Assembly (NCBI RefSeq): GCF_900172295.1
Contig: NZ_FWFL01000009.1
Location: 62,001 to 126,000, forward strand
Reading direction: 5' to 3'
Origin: Roseovarius litorisediminis
Lineage (GTDB): Bacteria > Pseudomonadota > Alphaproteobacteria > Rhodobacterales > Rhodobacteraceae
DNA length: 64,000 nucleotides
The notes under the pieces were generated by a model. It ran no database searches and had not been told where the DNA came from. It was given only the letters and a program-made list of their open reading frames with translations. Position 1 is the first letter of the stretch; each line of letters starts with the position of its first letter. Positions 9,452 to 17,374 of the stretch are shown one piece after another. The position numbers were made by a program, and so were the translations under genes.

Positions 9452-11206
9452 ATGCCTGGCCTTCGAAGTAAATGGATCGGAATTATCGTACCTTTTCTGG
9501 TATTTGTTGCCGTCCTGACAATTGGCGTCTGGCGCTATGGTTACAGTCAGGCCCTTGATCAACTGGCGCGGCGGGGCACAGCGGATATCACCCTTGTCCT
9601 GGATGGGCTCTCTTCTGATCTGCAACGATATCGTGATCAGGCCGTACAACTTGCAGAACATCCGACACTCACTCAACTGACAGCGACGCGCCAACGCGAC
9701 CAGGCGGCGGATGATCTGCTTCTTGCTGCCGCCGACCGTACCGGAGCAGCGATGCTATTGTTCGTCGATTCAAACGGTACGGTGTTGGCGAACTCGCAAG
9801 AACAGCAACCAGCGGGCCTTCAACAGTCGCGCTACTTTCAAAGAGCCATGGATGGCGCACTGGGTATAGCGCATGCCACTGACACAGGCTTTGGTAAACG
9901 CGTGTTTTATTTTGCGGCCCCATCTTTCGCTGACACCGGTCAAATACAAGCGGCACTGGTGACGGTAGCGGACGTTGAAAATGCCGAAATAGGTTGGCGC
10001 GCAGGGCCAACAGCGGTTTTGCTGATAGATTCAGACGATAACATATTCATGTCAAATCGTACTGAGCTACTGGGTTGGGCGCACCCCGCCGGCTCAACGA
10101 CATTCCTGCACCCAAACGGCGAAAAACACGTTTTCAAGCCTCAATCTTTCGGAAATCATGAAGTGTGGAAGCTCAATCTTGGCCCCTACCTGCCAAGCGA
10201 AGCGCTTAGACTTACACAATCACGCCCACAACTGGATATGACCGGTCTAGCTTTGGTCGATGTCGCCCCTGCGCAGAAGATCGCCTTGCTGCAATCCACC
10301 GTGGTTGGTGCACTTTTGTTGTTTTTTGGAGCTTTGTTGTTCTTGACACAAGTGCGGCGCCAGACCCTCTCGATTGCCAATGCCAAACTTGAAAGCCGTG
10401 TCGCAGAACGCACCCAGAGCCTGACTGAAACCAACAAGATCCTGCGGCACGAAATCCGCGAGCGTAAAGAAGCTGAGGCGGCTTTGAAAAAAGCGCAGGC
10501 CGACCTGGTGCAGGCCGGAAAACTAAGCGCACTGGGCCAGCTCAGTGCAGGAATCAGCCACGAATTGAATCAACCTCTGATGGCGATTCAACAATATGCG
10601 GCGAATGGCGGCGCTTTTCTTGAACGGAAGCAACCTGACAAAGCGGGTGAGAACCTTTCGCGTATTGATGAGATGGCGCGCCGTATGGGCCGTATCATCC
10701 GCAACCTGCGCGCCTTTGTACGAAATGAGAACGAGCCAGTCGGGCAAGTCGATATTGTTCCAGTCATTGAAACCGCGCTGGATTTGACTGGTGCACGTAT
10801 GCGCCAAAGCGGCATCACCGTAAACTGGCAGCCCCCACCCCACCCGGTCTGGGTGTCGGGTGGCGAGGTGCGGCTGGGACAGGTTTTGGTCAACCTGATC
10901 AGCAACGCCGCTGATGCCATGACCGATAGCCCCGAAAAACAGCTGGATATCACGGTGCAAGAAGGCAACCCGGTGGTGCTGCGCCTGCGCGACACGGGTC
11001 CGGGAATTGAAGAACCGGAAAAGATTTTCGATCCGTTCTATTCCACCAAACAGGTGGGCGACGGCGACGGCATGGGGCTCGGTCTTTCGATCTCATATGG
11101 ACTAGTGCAAAGTTTTGGCGGAAATATTCGGGGCATTAACACCGCAAATGGCGCCGAGTTCTCGGTAGAGCTGGAACGCTGGCAGGAGAAAGACAAAGTG
11201 GCATGA
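9452..11206 (+). CDS. dctB: C4-dicarboxylate sensor histidine kinase DctB
   Basis: This 584-residue sensor kinase has a first membrane helix at about 9-27, a periplasmic domain of about 245 residues, and a second helix at about 277-299. A coiled linker leads to the kinase core. The dimerisation box GQLSAGISHELNQPL contains the phospho-acceptor His370. The catalytic domain shows NLISNAADAM, LRDTGPGIEEP and GMGLGLSISYGLVQSFGG. This is the DctB layout, which senses succinate, fumarate or malate and phosphorylates DctD. The last four bases overlap dctD. The TRAP genes downstream support a dicarboxylate role. Confidence 0.9.
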   Translation: MPGLRSKWIGIIVPFLVFVAVLTIGVWRYGYSQALDQLARRGTADITLVLDGLSSDLQRYRDQAVQLAEHPTLTQLTATRQRDQAADDLLLAAADRTGAAMLLFVDSNGTVLANSQEQQPAGLQQSRYFQRAMDGALGIAHATDTGFGKRVFYFAAPSFADTGQIQAALVTVADVENAEIGWRAGPTAVLLIDSDDNIFMSNRTELLGWAHPAGSTTFLHPNGEKHVFKPQSFGNHEVWKLNLGPYLPSEALRLTQSRPQLDMTGLALVDVAPAQKIALLQSTVVGALLLFFGALLFLTQVRRQTLSIANAKLESRVAERTQSLTETNKILRHEIRERKEAEAALKKAQADLVQAGKLSALGQLSAGISHELNQPLMAIQQYAANGGAFLERKQPDKAGENLSRIDEMARRMGRIIRNLRAFVRNENEPVGQVDIVPVIETALDLTGARMRQSGITVNWQPPPHPVWVSGGEVRLGQVLVNLISNAADAMTDSPEKQLDITVQEGNPVVLRLRDTGPGIEEPEKIFDPFYSTKQVGDGDGMGLGLSISYGLVQSFGGNIRGINTANGAEFSVELERWQEKDKVA

Positions 11207-12432
11207 TCCGAAAGGTGCTGGTAGTTGACGACGATAAACCCGTCCGCGAAGCGCTGGCGCAAACGCTGGAACTGGCAGATTACGACGTGCAATCTGCCGG
11301 GTCTTTCATTGAGGCGAAAGACCATATCGAGCGTGATTTTGCCGGGGTGATACTGTCTGACATCCGAATGCCCGGACGTGACGGGTTCCATCTGCTGAAT
11401 CATACCCAAAAGTTAGACGACGAGTTGCCGGTGATTTTGCTGACCGGCGAAGGTGATATTCCCATGGCGGTGCGCGCGATGGGCGAGGGAGCTTTTGATT
11501 TTCTGGAAAAACCCTGTGCGCCAGAGGCGTTGACCTCGGTTCTTGAAAGGGCGTTGAAAACCAGGGCGCTTGTGCTTGAAAACCGGCGGCTAAAAACTCA
11601 GCTCGAAACAGGTGATCCGGCGGCGCGCATGCTCTTTGGGACCTCTGAACTAGCCGAGGAACTGCGCCAACGCGTGCGTAGCGTTGCCAGAACCCGGGCC
11701 GAGGTTCTGGTTACCGGCCCGCCCGGGGCGGGCGTGTCCAAAGTAGCCGAAGTCATCCATTTTTTGTCCCCCGGGGCACCAGGGCCATTTGTCAAACACT
11801 CATCTGCCTCACTTGATGCAACCGCACTTGAGACAGCTTTTCAGGCCGCTGCGGGTGGCAACTTGTTCCTTGATGAAATCTCCACCTTGCCGACCGACAT
11901 GCAATACGCTGTACTGGAGCGGATCGAGCAGGACGCCGAGGCGCGCCTGATCGCAGGCAGCACCGCTGATCTGGAAAACGCAGTTGCTGCGGGCAATTTT
12001 CATGCCGAGCTTTATTACAGGCTGGATGTCATGCGCGTGAATGTCCCGCCACTTGCCGACCGCCCCGAGGATATCCCGGTGCTGTTTCGCCACTATGTGG
12101 CGCAGGCCGCCGAACAGGCCGGACTGGAGGCCCGCGAAATTACGCCCGATCATCTGGCCGCCCTGATGGCGCAGGACTGGCCCGGCAATGCGCGATCCCT
12201 GATGAGTGCGGCCATGCGATTTGTGCTGGGCATGCCCGATGCGACAACCGAAGCAGCCGAACTGGGCCTGACGGAACAGATGGCGCGGGTGGAAAGATCC
12301 CTGCTGATTGCTGCCTTGGGGCGGCAGAACGGCCGTGCATCAGCCGCGGCAAAAGCGCTGAAACTGCCGCGCAAGACCTTCTATGACAAGCTGGCCCGTT
12401 ACGGGTTGCGCCCCGATGACTACCGGCGATAA
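11203..12432 (+). CDS. dctD: DctD-type response regulator lacking the sigma-54 contact loop
   Basis: The 409-residue protein has a receiver domain (acidic D9-D11, phospho-acceptor D53, K103), an AAA+ domain at about 140-340, and a Fis-type helix-turn-helix at the end (RASAAAKALKLPRKTFYDKL). The AAA+ domain is degenerate. The P-loop reads GPPGAGVS at 172-179, with Val where the nucleotide-binding Lys belongs. About 19 residues holding the GAFTGA loop are absent between FVKHSSASLD and GGNLFLDEIS. Walker B and the arginine-finger region (AELYYRLDVMRVNVPPLADR) remain. It probably acts as a DNA-binding activator without sigma-54, as known for Rhodobacter capsulatus NtrC. Confidence 0.88.
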   Translation: MIRKVLVVDDDKPVREALAQTLELADYDVQSAGSFIEAKDHIERDFAGVILSDIRMPGRDGFHLLNHTQKLDDELPVILLTGEGDIPMAVRAMGEGAFDFLEKPCAPEALTSVLERALKTRALVLENRRLKTQLETGDPAARMLFGTSELAEELRQRVRSVARTRAEVLVTGPPGAGVSKVAEVIHFLSPGAPGPFVKHSSASLDATALETAFQAAAGGNLFLDEISTLPTDMQYAVLERIEQDAEARLIAGSTADLENAVAAGNFHAELYYRLDVMRVNVPPLADRPEDIPVLFRHYVAQAAEQAGLEAREITPDHLAALMAQDWPGNARSLMSAAMRFVLGMPDATTEAAELGLTEQMARVERSLLIAALGRQNGRASAAAKALKLPRKTFYDKLARYGLRPDDYRR

Positions 12433-12570: not shown

Positions 12571-13893
12571 ATGAACGACGTGTTACCCGAAGATCAGATG
12601 CCCAAAGGCATGCTTGCAGCTGCTCGATGGGCTGCTGAACGCACACCTGCAAATCGTAACCGCGCCGTTGATCTCTATCGCGCAATCGCCATCATGTTTG
12701 TGATTCTGGGCCATTGGCTGCTGGTCGCTGCTGTGGTCCGAAATGACGGCGTCAACCTGATAATCCTGCTGGCAGAACAACGCTGGACCCACTATGCGAC
12801 ATGGCTTTTTCAAGTTATGCCGGTCTTTTTCTTTGTCGGTGGCTTTTCCAACAGCCTTTCCTGGGCATCTGCCAGGCGCGATCCCGAAAAGACCCGTACT
12901 TGGGCGTCCACCCGTCTGACGCGCCTGCTGAAACCTACCGTGCCAGTGGTATTGGTTTGGGCGATGGCAGCTTTTATCGCGAACCGGATGGGTGTTTCAC
13001 CTGACCTTATTGGCGCGGCTTCGCAGGCGGCCCTAGTTCCCATCTGGTTCCTGGCCGTTTACATCATCATCACGATGGCCGTCCCGATAACGGCGGCCCT
13101 GTGGAACCGGTTTGGTATCCTATCTGTTGCGTTGCTGGCGGCAGGTGCAATCTTGGTCGACACCATTGCTTTTGGTATGGACCTGCAATGGCTACGTTGG
13201 GCAAACTACGGTTTTGTCTGGCTTGCTGTGCATCAACTTGGATATTGGTGGCACGTTGCTGAACGCCCAAAAACCTGGGCGTTTGTCTTTATCGCACTTG
13301 GTCTCGCGTGGCTTTACATGCTGATCGTACACTACGGGTTCCCGGTTGCCATGGTCAGCGTACCGGGTGCAGAAATGTCCAACACACGCCCTCCGACAAC
13401 AGCTATGCTGGCTGTTGGATGTGTGCAGATCGGCGTCATCCTGTTACTGACCGGCCCCGCGTCAAAATGGCTGCAAAATACACGGCCCTGGTCATGGGTC
13501 ATTTTGCTGAATCAGATGATTATGACAATTTATTTATGGCATATGACCGCGATGATTGCTGTGGTTGGTGTTACCGTCTTGCTGGGCGGCATCGGCCTAG
13601 GAGTCGAACCAGGCACAGGCCAATGGTGGGCGTTACGACCACTTTGGCTGGGGCTTTATATTGCTGTTCTGGCACCGCTGGTGCTGACTTTCGTCAGATT
13701 CGAGGCCGGAAGCCGAGCCACAAATGGTAATCAGCCCGGATCATGGCAGGCTTTTCTGGGCGCGCTGGTAACTTGCGCCGGACTGATCATGATGGCGCTT
13801 GGTGGAATTGGCGCCGACAATCTGTTTGGCGTCAGCTGGATTGCCGTAGGGCTTGTCGTAGCCGGGGTCGTTATGGCGACAAAACGCTTCTGA
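12571..13893 (+). CDS. Acyltransferase family 3 membrane protein
   Basis: This 440-residue polytopic membrane protein has the Acyltransferase-3 N-terminal signature NRAVDLYRAIAIMFVILGHWLL, whose His is the proposed catalytic residue. FQVMPVFFFVGGFSNSLSW follows, and about ten hydrophobic segments are seen. Relatives transfer acetyl or other acyl groups to sugars, lipids or peptides at the membrane. The substrate is unknown. It stands between dctBD and dctPQM on the same strand, about 140 bases after dctD, and has no evident link to dicarboxylate uptake. Confidence 0.82.
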   Translation: MNDVLPEDQMPKGMLAAARWAAERTPANRNRAVDLYRAIAIMFVILGHWLLVAAVVRNDGVNLIILLAEQRWTHYATWLFQVMPVFFFVGGFSNSLSWASARRDPEKTRTWASTRLTRLLKPTVPVVLVWAMAAFIANRMGVSPDLIGAASQAALVPIWFLAVYIIITMAVPITAALWNRFGILSVALLAAGAILVDTIAFGMDLQWLRWANYGFVWLAVHQLGYWWHVAERPKTWAFVFIALGLAWLYMLIVHYGFPVAMVSVPGAEMSNTRPPTTAMLAVGCVQIGVILLLTGPASKWLQNTRPWSWVILLNQMIMTIYLWHMTAMIAVVGVTVLLGGIGLGVEPGTGQWWALRPLWLGLYIAVLAPLVLTFVRFEAGSRATNGNQPGSWQAFLGALVTCAGLIMMALGGIGADNLFGVSWIAVGLVVAGVVMATKRF

Positions 13894-13920: not shown

Positions 13921-13938
13921 TGTGCGGTTTTCCGCACA
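13921..13938. promoter_or_regulatory. DctD-type operator, upstream copy
   Basis: TGTGCGGTTTTCCGCACA is a perfect inverted repeat with seven-base arms and a four-base centre. It matches the DctD upstream activator pattern known in rhizobia (TGTGCG...CGCACA). It lies between the acyltransferase and dctP. Confidence 0.75.
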
Positions 13939-13951
13939 AGCTGGCAAAAAA

Positions 13952-13969
13952 CGTGCGGAATTCCGCACA
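13952..13969. promoter_or_regulatory. DctD-type operator, downstream copy
   Basis: CGTGCGGAATTCCGCACA contains the perfect 16-base palindrome GTGCGGAATTCCGCAC. Its centre lies 31 bases from that of the upstream copy, close to three helical turns, so two DctD dimers could bind the same face of the DNA. Confidence 0.75.
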
Positions 13970-13994: not shown

Positions 13995-14011
13995 GCAGAA
14001 AAATTTTCTGC
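13995..14011. repeat. Short A/T-centred palindrome in the dctP leader
   Basis: GCAGAAAAATTTTCTGC is a perfect inverted repeat of eight bases around one A. It sits between the DctD operators and the proposed dctP promoter. It could be an early terminator for upstream transcripts or a protein site; the sequence does not decide. Confidence 0.4.
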
Positions 14012-14066
14012 AATGACTTGAAATCAAAAATAAAAATATCAAAGCACGGTCGCCACTAAAGAATAC

Positions 14067-14095
14067 TTGAGCGCGACACTGTCTTGTCCAAACAT
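14067..14095 (+). promoter_or_regulatory. Candidate sigma-70-type promoter for dctPQM
   Basis: TTGAGC and AAACAT are spaced by 17 bases, 63 bases before the dctP start codon. This would fit a housekeeping-sigma promoter driven by a DctD that cannot contact sigma-54. The match is moderate. Confidence 0.35.
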
Positions 14096-14157: not shown

Positions 14158-15159
14158 ATGAAATTCCTGACAGCAACCGCTGCCGCACTCGCCATGACTG
14201 TTTCAGCAGGCACAGCAACCGCTGCCTGTGACGATGGCGAAATCGTCGTCAAGTTCAGCCACGTCACCAACACTGACAAACACCCCAAAGGCATCGCTGC
14301 CGCGTTGCTTGAAAAGCGCGTTAACGAGGAAATGGACGGCAAGATGTGCATGGAGGTCTATCCGAACTCCACGCTTTATGACGACAACAAGGTACTCGAA
14401 GCGATGCTTCAGGGCGACGTGCAACTGGCTGCGCCCAGCCTGTCCAAGTTCGAACAGTTCACCAAACAGTTCCGTCTGTTTGACCTGCCTTTCTTGTTCA
14501 ATGACATTAAAGCCGTGGACAGCTTTCAATCCTCCGAGACCGGCCAGGCCATGCTGGACAGCATGCAAAAACGCGGCCTGCAGGGGCTGGCCTACTGGCA
14601 CAACGGCATGAAGCAGATGTCAGCCAACAAACCGCTGATTGAACCCTCGGACGCCAACGGCCTGAAATTCCGCGTGCAATCTTCGGACGTTCTGGTGGCC
14701 CAGATGGACGCCATCGGTGGCAGCCCTCAGAAAATGGCCTTTTCCGAAGTCTACGGGGCCCTGCAACAGGGTGTTGTGGACGGTCAGGAAAACACCTGGT
14801 CGAACATCTACGGCAAGAAATTCTTTGAGGTTCAGGACGGCACCACAGAAACCAACCACGGCGTGATTGACTATCTGCTGGTGACCAACATCGACTGGCT
14901 GGAAAGCCTGGACAGCGACGTGCGCGATCAGTTCCTTGCCATCGTGGACGAGGTTACCAACGCACGTAATGCCGAATCGACTGCCGTGAACGCCGCCGCC
15001 AAAGAGGCAGTCATCAAGGCAGGTGGCGTTGTCCGCCAACTTACGCCTGAACAGCGCGCCAAGTGGGTAGAGACAATGAAACCCGTCTGGGAGCAGTTCA
15101 AAGGCGACGTAGGCCAGGAAAACATCGACGCGGCCCAGGCGGCCAACGGCGGCGCCTGA
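14158..15159 (+). CDS. dctP: TRAP transporter C4-dicarboxylate-binding protein
   Basis: The 333-residue protein starts with a signal peptide (KFLTATAAALAMTVSAGTATA). It then shows the DctP-family core: VKFSHVTNTDKHPKG, LEKRVNEEMDGKMCMEVYPNSTLYDD, LAAPSLSKFEQF and GVVDGQENTWSNIY. The conserved Arg in LKFRVQSSD that clamps the carboxylate in this family is present. The protein is periplasmic and delivers C4-dicarboxylates to DctQM. A strong ribosome site (GGGAGGAG) precedes it. It is the first gene of dctPQM, behind the DctD operators. Confidence 0.92.
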   Translation: MKFLTATAAALAMTVSAGTATAACDDGEIVVKFSHVTNTDKHPKGIAAALLEKRVNEEMDGKMCMEVYPNSTLYDDNKVLEAMLQGDVQLAAPSLSKFEQFTKQFRLFDLPFLFNDIKAVDSFQSSETGQAMLDSMQKRGLQGLAYWHNGMKQMSANKPLIEPSDANGLKFRVQSSDVLVAQMDAIGGSPQKMAFSEVYGALQQGVVDGQENTWSNIYGKKFFEVQDGTTETNHGVIDYLLVTNIDWLESLDSDVRDQFLAIVDEVTNARNAESTAVNAAAKEAVIKAGGVVRQLTPEQRAKWVETMKPVWEQFKGDVGQENIDAAQAANGGA

Positions 15160-15269
15160 TCGGCCTTCTGGTCTGACATGACATCTGGGCGGGCAGTTGA
15201 TGGAATTGCCCGCCCTGCATGAACGCTGCTTCATGCCCCATGAAATCTGGACCCGGGGGAGGGGAAAAG

Positions 15270-15983
15270 ATGCATCCGCACCCAAGCCAAAGCATCACAG
15301 ACAAACTGGAAGAGACGCTTATCGCGGTCATTCTGGGCCTGATGACGATGATTACCTTTATCAATGTCATCGTGCGCAAGGCCTTTGCAAATGATCCGCC
15401 AGCGCTCATTGAATGGATCAAGCTCGAGAATATCGGCCTTTGGGGCAACGAGCTTACGGTGCTCATGTTTGCCTGGCTGGGATTGCTGGGGGCCTCTTAT
15501 GCGGTGAAGAAAAACGCGCATCTGGGCGTCGATGCGGTGATCAACATGTTATCTGCCCCGGTCCGCCGTATTCTGGCCCTTGTGGCGGTTGCGGTCTGTC
15601 TGGTTTACGCCTTCCTGCTGCTCAAAGGGTCGTGGGATTACTGGGCCAACTTCGCCAATCTGCCCGCCACCGAAGGCCGCTGGTTCCCCACCGGGTTCGA
15701 GGACAAATTCCGCGAAAAAGGCTGGTACGCGATGGAAAGCGTGCCAATGCCCGGCATGCTGGCCTGGATGGCAGATGTCTTCAACGACGGCGAACCCTAC
15801 GAAAAACTGCCCCGTCTGGTACCCTACTTTGCGTTGCCTCTTTCCATGGCGCTGCTGCTGTTTCGCTTTGCTCAGGTGGCCGTAGCAATCTGGCAGGGCA
15901 AGATGGACCGCATTGTCGCCAGCCACGAGGTTGAAGACGAAATTCAGGAAATGCGCGAACAACGCGGGGAGTTTGACACATGA
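15270..15983 (+). CDS. dctQ: TRAP transporter small permease
   Basis: The product of about 237 residues is a four-helix small TRAP permease. LEETLIAVILGLMTMITFINVIVRKAF forms helix one. NELTVLMFAWLGLLGASYAVKKNAHLGVD is the family signature joining helix two to the loop. DctQ stabilises the large permease and connects it to DctP. It is longer than many DctQ proteins because of a loop of about 60 residues between helices three and four. The ATG is chosen because GGGGAGGGG stands just upstream; in-frame ATGs also occur 30 and 51 bases earlier. The last four bases overlap dctM. Confidence 0.9.
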   Translation: MHPHPSQSITDKLEETLIAVILGLMTMITFINVIVRKAFANDPPALIEWIKLENIGLWGNELTVLMFAWLGLLGASYAVKKNAHLGVDAVINMLSAPVRRILALVAVAVCLVYAFLLLKGSWDYWANFANLPATEGRWFPTGFEDKFREKGWYAMESVPMPGMLAWMADVFNDGEPYEKLPRLVPYFALPLSMALLLFRFAQVAVAIWQGKMDRIVASHEVEDEIQEMREQRGEFDT

Positions 15984-17374
15984 CCGTAGCCCTGCTTTTC
16001 CTGATCATCGTCGGGCTGATGCTGATCGGTGTGCCGATTGCCGTGGCGCTTGGCATGTCGTCTATCCTGTTCCTGCTGGTGTTTTCCGACAGTTCACTTG
16101 CGTCAGTGGCGCAGACCTTGTTTGCCGCCTTCGAAGGGCATTCCACCCTGTTGGCGATCCCCTTCTTCATTCTGGCCTCGTCGTTCATGTCGACTGGCGG
16201 TGTGGCGCAGCGGATCATCCGATTTTCCATCGCCTGCGTGGGGCATCTGCGCGGCGGTCTGGCAATCGCGGGCGTTTTTGCCTGTATGCTTTTTGCCGCC
16301 CTTTCGGGATCATCCCCGGCAACAGTGGTCGCCATCGGCTCGATCGTGATCGCGGCAATGCGGCAGGCGGGCTATACCAAGGAATTCGCGGCAGGCGTGA
16401 TCTGTAACGCGGGCACATTGGGCATCCTGATACCCCCCAGCATCGTGATGGTGGTCTATGCCGCCGCAGTCGAGGTTTCGGTAGGCCGGATGTTCCTGGC
16501 CGGCGTTATCCCCGGCATCATGGCCGGTGTGATGTTGATGATCGCGATTTACGTCATGGCCCGGGTCAAGAACATGCCCAAAGGCGAGTGGGCCGGCTGG
16601 GGCGAGATTGGCGCTTCTTTCCGCGATGCGGCCTGGGGCCTAGGGCTGATCGCGATCATCATGATCGGCATCTACGGAATCCCCGGTGTCACCAGCGCGA
16701 TTTTTACCCCGACCGAGGCCGCAGCCGTGGCGGCAGTCTATGCCTTCCTTATTGCCAGCTTTGTCTACCGCGACATGGGGCCACTGGCCACCGATGGCGA
16801 CGGGCACAATATCTCGCTTTTGCGCAAGCCGCTGGCGCTGATCAGCGCCTGGGGGCACGTCGACACGCGCCACACCTTGTTCGAGGCCGGCAAACTGACC
16901 GTCACGCTGATGTTCGTGATCGCCAATGCCTTGATCCTGAAACATGTGCTGACAGACGAGCAGGTGCCGCAACATGTGGCCAATGCCATGCTCAGCGCGG
17001 GTTTTGGCCAGGTCATGTTTCTTGTGGTGGTCAACGTAATCCTGCTGGTTGGTGGGCAGTTCATGGAGCCCTCGGGCCTGTTGGTCATCGTCGCCCCACT
17101 GGTCTTTCCCATTGCCATTCAACTGGGCATCGACCCGATCCATTTGGGCATCATCATGGTGGTGAACATGGAAATCGGGATGATTACCCCGCCCGTTGGT
17201 CTGAACCTGTTCGTAACCTCGGGTGTGGCGGGCATGCCTATGATGGCCGTGGTCCGCGCCGCCCTGCCCTTCCTGGCGGTTCTCTTCGTGTTCCTGATCA
17301 TGATCACCTATATTCCATGGATCAGCACTGTCTTGCCCAACGCCATCATGGGGCCTGAACTTATCACCAACTGA
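15980..17374 (+). CDS. dctM: TRAP transporter large permease
   Basis: This 464-residue integral membrane protein is a DctM-type TRAP large permease. FAAFEGHSTLLAIPFFILASSFMSTGG and ALSGSSPATVVAIGSIVIAAMRQAGY are characteristic, as is CNAGTLGILIPPSIVMVVYA. It couples sodium-driven transport to substrate handed over by DctP. It overlaps dctQ by ATGA and closes the operon, with a terminator 22 bases after its stop. Confidence 0.93.
   Translation: MTVALLFLIIVGLMLIGVPIAVALGMSSILFLLVFSDSSLASVAQTLFAAFEGHSTLLAIPFFILASSFMSTGGVAQRIIRFSIACVGHLRGGLAIAGVFACMLFAALSGSSPATVVAIGSIVIAAMRQAGYTKEFAAGVICNAGTLGILIPPSIVMVVYAAAVEVSVGRMFLAGVIPGIMAGVMLMIAIYVMARVKNMPKGEWAGWGEIGASFRDAAWGLGLIAIIMIGIYGIPGVTSAIFTPTEAAAVAAVYAFLIASFVYRDMGPLATDGDGHNISLLRKPLALISAWGHVDTRHTLFEAGKLTVTLMFVIANALILKHVLTDEQVPQHVANAMLSAGFGQVMFLVVVNVILLVGGQFMEPSGLLVIVAPLVFPIAIQLGIDPIHLGIIMVVNMEIGMITPPVGLNLFVTSGVAGMPMMAVVRAALPFLAVLFVFLIMITYIPWISTVLPNAIMGPELITN

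Follow-up and report, generated by a model that had tools for sequence, protein, structure and literature searches.

The stretch of DNA analysed here (the window; 64,000 nucleotides of Roseovarius litorisediminis contig NZ_FWFL01000009.1, positions 62,001 to 126,000) carries the gene of a sensor kinase, dctB, overlapping that of a response regulator, dctD, and, beyond one intervening gene, the genes dctPQM of a tripartite ATP-independent periplasmic (TRAP) transporter (Table 1). The presence of dctB in the same operon and of dctPQM as a neighbour, in the window and likewise at most of the orthologous loci compared, identifies the regulator as a DctD by descent. From its sequence and that of its relatives, DctBD is probably the regulatory system of this C4-dicarboxylate transporter, with DctD a sigma-54-independent activator whose ATPase is dead.

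DctD lacks the GAFTGA loop and parts of the ATPase site

Canonical DctD carries the GAFTGA motif and a Walker A lysine and is matched by a -24/-12 promoter. The dctD open reading frame of the window encodes 409 residues, in which Pfam found a receiver, a Sigma54_activat domain split into two stretches, an AAA lid and a Fis-type helix-turn-helix (HTH). We refer to its positions by the family's names sensor I, sensor II, arginine finger, L1 and L2, which we take to apply here. Aligned with ten GAFTGA-bearing DctDs, the L1 loop has 0 residues against 19, exactly the gap of about 19 residues around GAFTGA that an earlier note on this DNA had described, and the L2/pre-sensor-I stretch has 9 residues against 21. 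The P-loop reads GPPGAGVS, as that note had also said, with Val178 at the position of the Walker A lysine (Lys in nine and Arg in one of the ten); Thr254 stands at the sensor-I position, a lysine in all ten, and His267 replaces the first arginine finger, an arginine in all ten and in 20 of 20 GAFxGA rows. A complete ATPase site was thus not found, the lysine, the sensor-I-position residue and arginine finger 1 all being changed, while Arg273 (the second arginine finger), Walker B Asp224-Glu225, sensor-II Arg331 and the receiver residues Asp53, Thr81 and Lys103 are kept. The note's list of retained parts is borne out by Pfam and by individual residues for the receiver, Walker B and the Fis-type HTH; its arginine-finger region is only half preserved.

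An AlphaFold2 model of DctD (mean predicted local distance difference test score, pLDDT, 89.8; predicted template modelling score, pTM, 0.59; placement of domains relative to one another unreliable) has the AAA+ fold without the loops, and superposes on the AAA+ domains of FlrC and FleQ with Z scores of ~25 and a root-mean-square deviation (r.m.s.d.) of 1.5–2.0 over 208–212 residues. Foldseek/VIA matched the model to NtrX, NtrC1 and VpsR, which speaks for retention of the AAA+ and receiver folds and no more. The receiver matches the Sinorhizobium meliloti DctD structures 1l5y (E 1e-35) and 1qkk (E 3.8e-35), with 47% identity to the latter over receiver and linker and an r.m.s.d. of 1.5 over 139 residues. 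With a receiver, an AAA+ fold and a Fis-type HTH, the last seen in the sequence only, DctD is an NtrC-family response regulator.

The loss is shared by a whole clade

At E 1e-40, 247 of the family's 248 genera yielded a relative in a search with DctD, many of these being paralogues; we sampled 120 further regions from the family, 14 from the class and, as named loci, the best 80 of 429. A tree of 155 rows was built with FastTree, with local SH-like supports, from the columns of the window protein only, hence without loop columns, and with the P-loop dropped. Rows shorter than 380 residues (among them L127, L196, L201 and L209), the 80 named loci and 8 of the 12 rows resembling locus L003 were left out, and the placement of the long-branch rows L001, L002 and L005, from the window genome, is unreliable.

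One branch of this tree (support 99) holds 101 rows, one per genus, with neither lysine nor arginine at the Walker A position and no L1; we call these DctDs, which lack the Walker A lysine, K-less. At that position they have Ile (53), Thr (27), Val (13), Leu (3), Asn (3), Met (1) or Ser (1); the first arginine finger is absent from all 101, and the lysine at the sensor-I position is left in one. The loop and the Walker A lysine have also been lost in all 80 named relatives, which include Roseovarius, Ruegeria, Phaeobacter, Leisingera and Tritonibacter. A loss shared by 101 of 101 and 80 of 80 relatives is therefore far beyond chance, and the alignment of DctD homologues that the earlier note had proposed places the loop loss as old and clade-wide, in genomes with and without rpoN alike.

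A wider branch of 113 rows (support 97) adds G057 and G206, which have half of L1 with an intact Walker A and an intact L2, and ten rows of a sister lineage (L197, L198, L199, L200, L206, L207, L219, L226, L237 and L248) that have lost the loops and kept a Walker A Lys (8) or Arg (2), and whose Walker B Asp is replaced by Lys in every case. On this evidence the DctD motor seems to have been dismantled stepwise and by more than one route. At five of the sister loci (L198, L206, L219, L226 and L237) dctP is divergent and upstream of dctB.

An order-level search with a GAFTGA DctD led to a second DctD-like family in the order; the 30 loci read among its matches (L283–L312) have GAFPGA (24), GAFAGA (5) or GAFEGA (1), and none has GAFTGA. 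The tree includes 20 GAFxGA rows, 11 of them from genomes without a convincing rpoN, and judging by its sequences this family may be sigma-54-independent too. A plasmid search for DctD gave 578 records, every one below 60% identity. A record titled Nocardioides marinus (L083) contains an alphaproteobacterial-type dctBD-dctPQM locus with 69% DctD identity and is probably mislabelled or contaminated, and at L127 (G009:C3) the dctD orthologue has an in-frame TAA, either a real loss or an assembly error.

The protein is under selection while its motor is relaxed

Conservation in the 101 K-less rows is lowest in the AAA core (2.73 bits, against 3.41 in the receiver, 3.37 in the lid and 3.41 in the HTH), whereas in 30 canonical rows the core is the most conserved domain (3.06 bits, against 2.93, 2.85 and 2.97). 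Among 16 close loci (120 pairs), the median ratio of non-synonymous to synonymous substitution rates (dN/dS) is 0.215 in the core, 0.133 in the receiver, 0.073 in the lid and 0.060 in the HTH. The gene is thus under purifying selection, and the motor is relaxed; on these ratios the idea that dctD is a pseudogene was rejected.

Two residues just after the P-loop are newly conserved: Lys180 (100 of 101 K-less rows and 78 of 80 named relatives, 0% in canonical rows) and Glu183 (100 of 101 and 80 of 80, against 3%). The receiver Asp53 and Lys103 are present in 101 of 101 K-less rows, which also keep the Walker B Asp (96/101), the Walker B Glu (86/101) and the sensor-II Arg (99/101).

Sigma-54 in the host genome and its relatives

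The window genome, a 4.0-Mb draft in 39 contigs with a completeness of 100, gave no match to Sigma54_DBD (PF04552) or Sigma54_CBD (PF04963) in a profile search that did match the controls E. coli, B. subtilis, Caulobacter and Bacteroides. Across the family, with one genome per genus, PF04552 matched in 83 of 248 genomes (72 of the 215 more complete ones); by our own threshold, and with some genomes incomplete, 76 of 248 have a convincing rpoN and 172 do not. This set leaves out seven genomes with weak matches (G022, G075, G095, G110, G115, G188 and G190; E 1e-4 to 1e-3), of which G075 lies above the Pfam cut-off for PF04552, and G492, G495 and G511, also with weak matches, were excluded in the same way; G021 and G031 were taken as rpoN-positive from partial matches, that of G031 with a stop. 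The counts also leave out G309, G413 and G434, and cover 37 genomes for the 80 named loci, 7 of them with a convincing match.

K-less DctDs occur in rpoN-positive genomes in 22 of 101 cases. Loop loss therefore does not require that sigma-54 be absent today, and loss of rpoN in the window genome is ruled out as its sole cause.

The window genome has five more full NtrC-family response regulators by PF00158 (L001–L005, on contigs C23, C29, C13, C29 and C29), and three weak matches in proteins of 344–887 residues. GAFTGA is found in none of the five and the Walker A lysine in all of them, in a genome without detectable sigma-54; from resemblance and neighbours we putatively name them NtrX, NtrC, a DctD paralogue and two others.

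Paired operators and a conserved box precede dctP

Upstream of dctP we found an inverted repeat with the consensus GTGCGG-N4-CCGCAC. Every one of the 94 K-less and 78 named dctP regions has at least one such operator (at most two mismatches); pairs, defined as two operators with at most two mismatches each, 29–36 bp apart and 150–275 bp before the start, occur in 75 of 94 and 76 of 78. Among dctP regions of all kinds, 154 of 185 have two operators, in 148 of these with a spacing of 32 bp (80) or 33 bp (68), and the median position of operator 2 is 206 bp before the ATG. Both operators of the window are exact, and the exact 16-base form occurs nowhere else in the genome. A wide DctD regulon was considered and rejected: at up to two mismatches the genome has 17 matches, against 21 for a reversed-pattern control.

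An unsupervised two-block search recovered CTTGAGC followed by a 17-bp spacer and a -10-like element. Anchored between operator 2 +85 and +135, with a slight preference for +114 and the same rule for shuffled sequences, the CTTGAGC box (at least 5 of 7 letters) was found at 130 of the 149 non-redundant loci and fell within +112 to +116 at 115 of these, where 20 shuffles gave means of 58 and 9. It lies near the expected place at 16 of 22 loci from rpoN-positive genomes, 66 of 84 from rpoN-negative genomes and 37 of 43 outside the rpoN count. We propose from its sequence that this is a sigma-70-family-like promoter; the box does not settle which factor reads it. A further conserved box at operator 2 +59 fits a site for integration host factor (IHF) on the opposite strand. 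In the window the transcription start, as predicted from the -10, would be 14102, with the operators at about -142 and -172; no conserved operator was found on the dctP promoter itself among the compared loci. As read from the sequences, the distance of the operators, their near-constant spacing from the -35 and the bend-like box between them make up an enhancer layout.

Signs of sigma-54 promoters were not enriched. A -24/-12 scan of the 149 dctP loci gave a mean best score of 0.656, against 0.659 in shuffled sequences, with scores of at least 0.8 in 2.0% against 2.9%. The earlier note had suggested that a site with GG-N10-GC spacing at 13941 may be chance or a relic. The site is present, and chance describes it: the window holds 116 sites of this quality, against 104.8 expected (standard deviation 9.8). 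A sigma-54 relic at 13941–13957 was rejected, since operator 2 itself supplies the GC and GG-N10-GC within two positions of this place occurs at 20 of 149 loci.

The acyltransferase gene that follows dctD in the window was seen among the compared loci only here and at L027 and L046, both Roseovarius; the dctP operators and promoter box are intact downstream of it.

Table 1 Features of the dctBD-dctPQM locus, in window positions.
Feature	Position	Strand	Remarks
dctB	9452..11206	+	Sensor kinase with dCache, HisKA and HATPase_c (Pfam); 4-base overlap with dctD
dctD	11203..12432	+	Receiver, AAA+ core lacking L1 (GAFTGA), lid, Fis-type HTH
Degenerate Walker A, GPPGAGVS, DctD residues 172–179	11716..11739	+	Val178 for Lys; followed by Lys180 and Glu183
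L1 deletion junction, DctD residues 210/211	11830..11835	+	19 residues including GAFTGA missing (alignment)
Walker B region, LFLDE, DctD residues 221–225	11863..11877	+	Asp224-Glu225 kept
Second deletion, L2/pre-sensor-I loop of DctD	11932..11946	+	About 12 residues; place approximate
Arginine-finger region of DctD	12001..12021	+	First Arg replaced by His267; second, Arg273, kept
Acyltransferase gene	12571..13893	+	Between dctD and the dctP regulatory region
Operator 1, GTGCGGTTTTCCGCAC	13922..13937		Inverted repeat
Operator 2, GTGCGGAATTCCGCAC	13953..13968		Inverted repeat; spacing to operator 1, 31 bp
IHF-like box (around operator 2 +59, where tAANNNNcTGAAAA is conserved)	14011..14025	-	Putative IHF binding
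Proposed -35 element, TTGAGC (conserved CTTGAGC box)	14067..14072	+	Cross-species conservation
Proposed -10 element, AAACAT	14090..14095	+	17-bp spacer; weak here, position conserved in relatives
dctP	14158..15159	+	TRAP solute-binding protein, proposed DctD target; open reading frame and Pfam
dctQ	15219..15983	+	Open reading frame and Pfam
dctM	15980..17374	+	Open reading frame and Pfam

Natural controls with GAFTGA

Two GAFTGA-bearing DctDs with a downstream dctP were found, in the more distant, rpoN-positive genomes G456 and G455. Both have strong -24/-12 sites before dctP (TGGCATGCAGATTGCT at -78 in G456 and TGGCACAGTTTTTGCA at -93 in G455); near dctP, G456 has one operator, at -213 with two mismatches, and G455 none. 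In these few comparable cases (n=2) the loop and the promoter type therefore appear to change together, with the caveat that GAFPGA-type relatives before dctP in the rpoN-positive genomes G467 and G194 lack both the operator and a strong -24/-12 site.

Discussion

Given that sigma-54 is not detectable and that both L1 and the Walker A lysine are missing, the simplest reading is that DctD activates a sigma-70-family promoter by looping, without turnover of ATP. The earlier note's expectation that this protein cannot serve sigma-54 is supported by the absence of a sigma-54 match, the unenriched -24/-12 sites at 149 loci and the loss of several ATPase-site residues. Sensing of dicarboxylate by DctB would lead to phosphorylation of DctD at Asp53; phospho-DctD would then bind the two operators, on nearly the same helical face at about -172 and -142 from the predicted start, and through DNA looping, probably aided by a bend at the IHF-like box, would contact sigma-70-family RNA polymerase at the CTTGAGC-N17 promoter. 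The AAA+ core, presumably without ATP hydrolysis, would act as a scaffold for oligomerisation or for contact with the polymerase, and the outcome would be activation of dctP rather than repression.

Mutant fitness bears on the sign of this regulation. In the part of a transposon study of Ruegeria pomeroyi used here, disruption of the regulator gene SPO2630 had an effect of -0.25 in one of three treatments, with -0.13 and -0.12 for dctM and -0.17 and -0.65 for dctQ (PMC10041152); the locus numbers are neighbouring and all these effects negative. The genome titled R. pomeroyi has one K-less DctD beside dctPQM, so SPO2630 is probably its orthologue by gene order, and phenotypes of the same sign weakly favour activation.

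Several observations weigh against sigma-70 activation by looping. By the criteria used, 19 of 94 K-less dctP regions have no second operator, and the CTTGAGC box is below threshold at 19 of 149 loci (11 of 70 K-less). The window's own -35 and -10 elements (TTGAGC and AAACAT) are weak by consensus, and a simple sigma-70 consensus scan of the window region reports no site, so the claim of a promoter there rests on conservation across species. The IHF-like box scores 7.24 of 9 against 6.60 in shuffles, a modest gain. Three of the 149 loci score at least 0.8 for a sigma-54-like site, and the loopless sister-lineage locus L226 (G143, without a PF04552 match) has one of 0.88 before dctP. In principle, Lys180, newly conserved, might still interact with nucleotide; the SPO2630 effect is significant in one of three treatments, with orthology taken from gene order; and just two GAFTGA controls with dctP were found, one of which, G455, has Arg at Walker A and no operator-like site.

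An alternative that we regard as unlikely is that DctD works as Rhodobacter capsulatus NtrC does, with neither hydrolysis nor sigma-54 and with ATP bound for oligomerisation, here through a re-registered P-loop that uses Lys180. The near-invariance of Lys180 and Glu183, the retention of the Walker B residues and the sensor-II Arg, and the preserved AAA+ fold of the model would all suit it, as would the reported ATP binding by R. capsulatus NtrC (PMC10274813). Yet DctD has lost, all together, the Walker A lysine, the residue after it (Glu in 10 of 10 GAFTGA rows), the sensor-I-position lysine and the first arginine finger; the lysine two residues on sits, in the model, in the following helix; and the AAA core is the fastest-evolving domain of DctD. 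Sigma-70 activation without ATP thus remains our preferred reading, and it is also to be set against DctD being a repressor, or mainly an anti-repressor, of the same promoter. NtrC-family proteins can repress sigma-70 promoters, and Caulobacter NtrC is reported to repress some genes (PMC10274813); the sequence does not prove activation. Both operators lie far upstream, however, the -10 is weak as expected of an activated promoter, and in R. pomeroyi the fitness effects of the regulator and transporter mutations share a sign, which together make repression improbable.

That DctD is a decaying, non-functional relic would agree with the many conserved AAA+ residues it has lost and with the in-frame stop of the L127 copy from G009, but is very hard to reconcile with a dN/dS of 0.06–0.22 in four domains, with conserved operators and synteny and with the same form of the protein in 101 genera. 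We give almost no credence to the proposal that DctD still serves sigma-54 by a different surface, at least in rpoN-positive relatives: although 22 of 101 K-less rows come from such genomes and single loci have sigma-54-like sites, the same CTTGAGC box stands at 16 of the 22 rpoN-positive loci, sigma-54 sites are not enriched over 149 loci and the window genome has no sigma-54 match.

R. capsulatus NtrC has tandem distal sites, and DctD resembles it, at the level of sequence, in lacking GAFTGA and in having distal tandem sites before a sigma-70-type promoter. R. capsulatus NtrC, Caulobacter NtrC and VpsR are described as NtrC-family proteins without GAFTGA that act on sigma-70 promoters; for the two NtrCs the phosphorylated Asp is reported to matter, ATP binding being reported as needed in R. 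capsulatus and both binding and hydrolysis being predicted by the authors for Caulobacter (PMC10274813). DctD differs from the R. capsulatus protein in that its Walker A lysine (absent from 101 of 101), L2 loop and first arginine finger are gone as well, and the K-less clade has probably, on sequence grounds, gone one step further in ATP independence. It is also a different gene, with different operators and a separate branch of the tree: L005, the putative NtrC of the window genome, which keeps GESGTGKS and whose placement is unsure, falls outside the single branch of loopless DctDs. The parallel with R. capsulatus NtrC and the independent origin, both put forward in the earlier note, are thereby upheld.

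In the part of Francke et al. 2011 consulted, HupR, TyrR and DhaR have a changed or deleted GAFTGA and are called sigma-70 dependent, VpsR is probably not sigma-54 dependent, and Thr-to-Pro is a favoured deviation in GAFTGA (PMC3162934). VpsR is a c-di-GMP effector (PMC12564702). None of these is a DctD, and no loopless DctD is named in that part of Francke et al. 2011 (PMC3162934). A closer case is R. pomeroyi SPOA0237 (dctD-2), likewise an NtrC-family protein without GAFTGA, with a kinase gene before it and TRAP genes after it, whose mutant fitness is reported to resemble that of its own TRAP genes (PMC10041152); it differs in keeping GETGTGKE and part of L1, in its length of 446 residues and in having one palindrome in a short upstream region. 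This palindrome, CTGCGGAAATCCGCAG, similar to those before dctP, lies at L282:26313–26328 (R. pomeroyi DSS-3 megaplasmid, before SPOA0238), upstream of the second TRAP cluster, and is possibly a SPOA0237 site. Sinorhizobium and Rhizobium DctD share the DctB partner and the dicarboxylate transporter target with the DctD of the window, which differs in having no GAFTGA, no Walker A lysine and no -24/-12 promoter. Tandem upstream sites are a feature of these canonical DctDs too. Among the matches listed in open-access literature we found no DctD lacking GAFTGA or the Walker A lysine; NtrC-family regulators without GAFTGA that act with sigma-70 are already known.

More tentatively, the K-less DctDs may be an old, widespread lineage (101 genera) in which enhancer action is wholly uncoupled from ATP and the AAA+ domain is a nucleotide-free scaffold, activating sigma-70-family polymerase by looping from operators at a near-fixed distance, with the old pocket rebuilt around Lys180 and Glu183, which would either form a salt-bridge lock or bind another ligand; the relatives with half a loop and the lysine kept, and those with loops lost, Walker A kept and Walker B replaced, would then have left sigma-54 control by routes of their own. 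Within a single regulator and its near relatives, the GAFTGA form, a partial loop, a loopless form with the lysine and one without it make up a natural series, matched by promoter type in the few comparable cases (-24/-12 against CTTGAGC-N17), which makes the conversion of an ATP-driven sigma-54 activator into an ATP-independent sigma-70 activator testable. The finding also touches annotation, as R. pomeroyi SPO_RS21020, which has no GAFTGA, is labelled 'sigma-54 dependent transcriptional regulator'. The proposed target takes up organic acids, and its genes are reported to affect the fitness of R. pomeroyi with diatoms and with other bacteria (PMC10041152).

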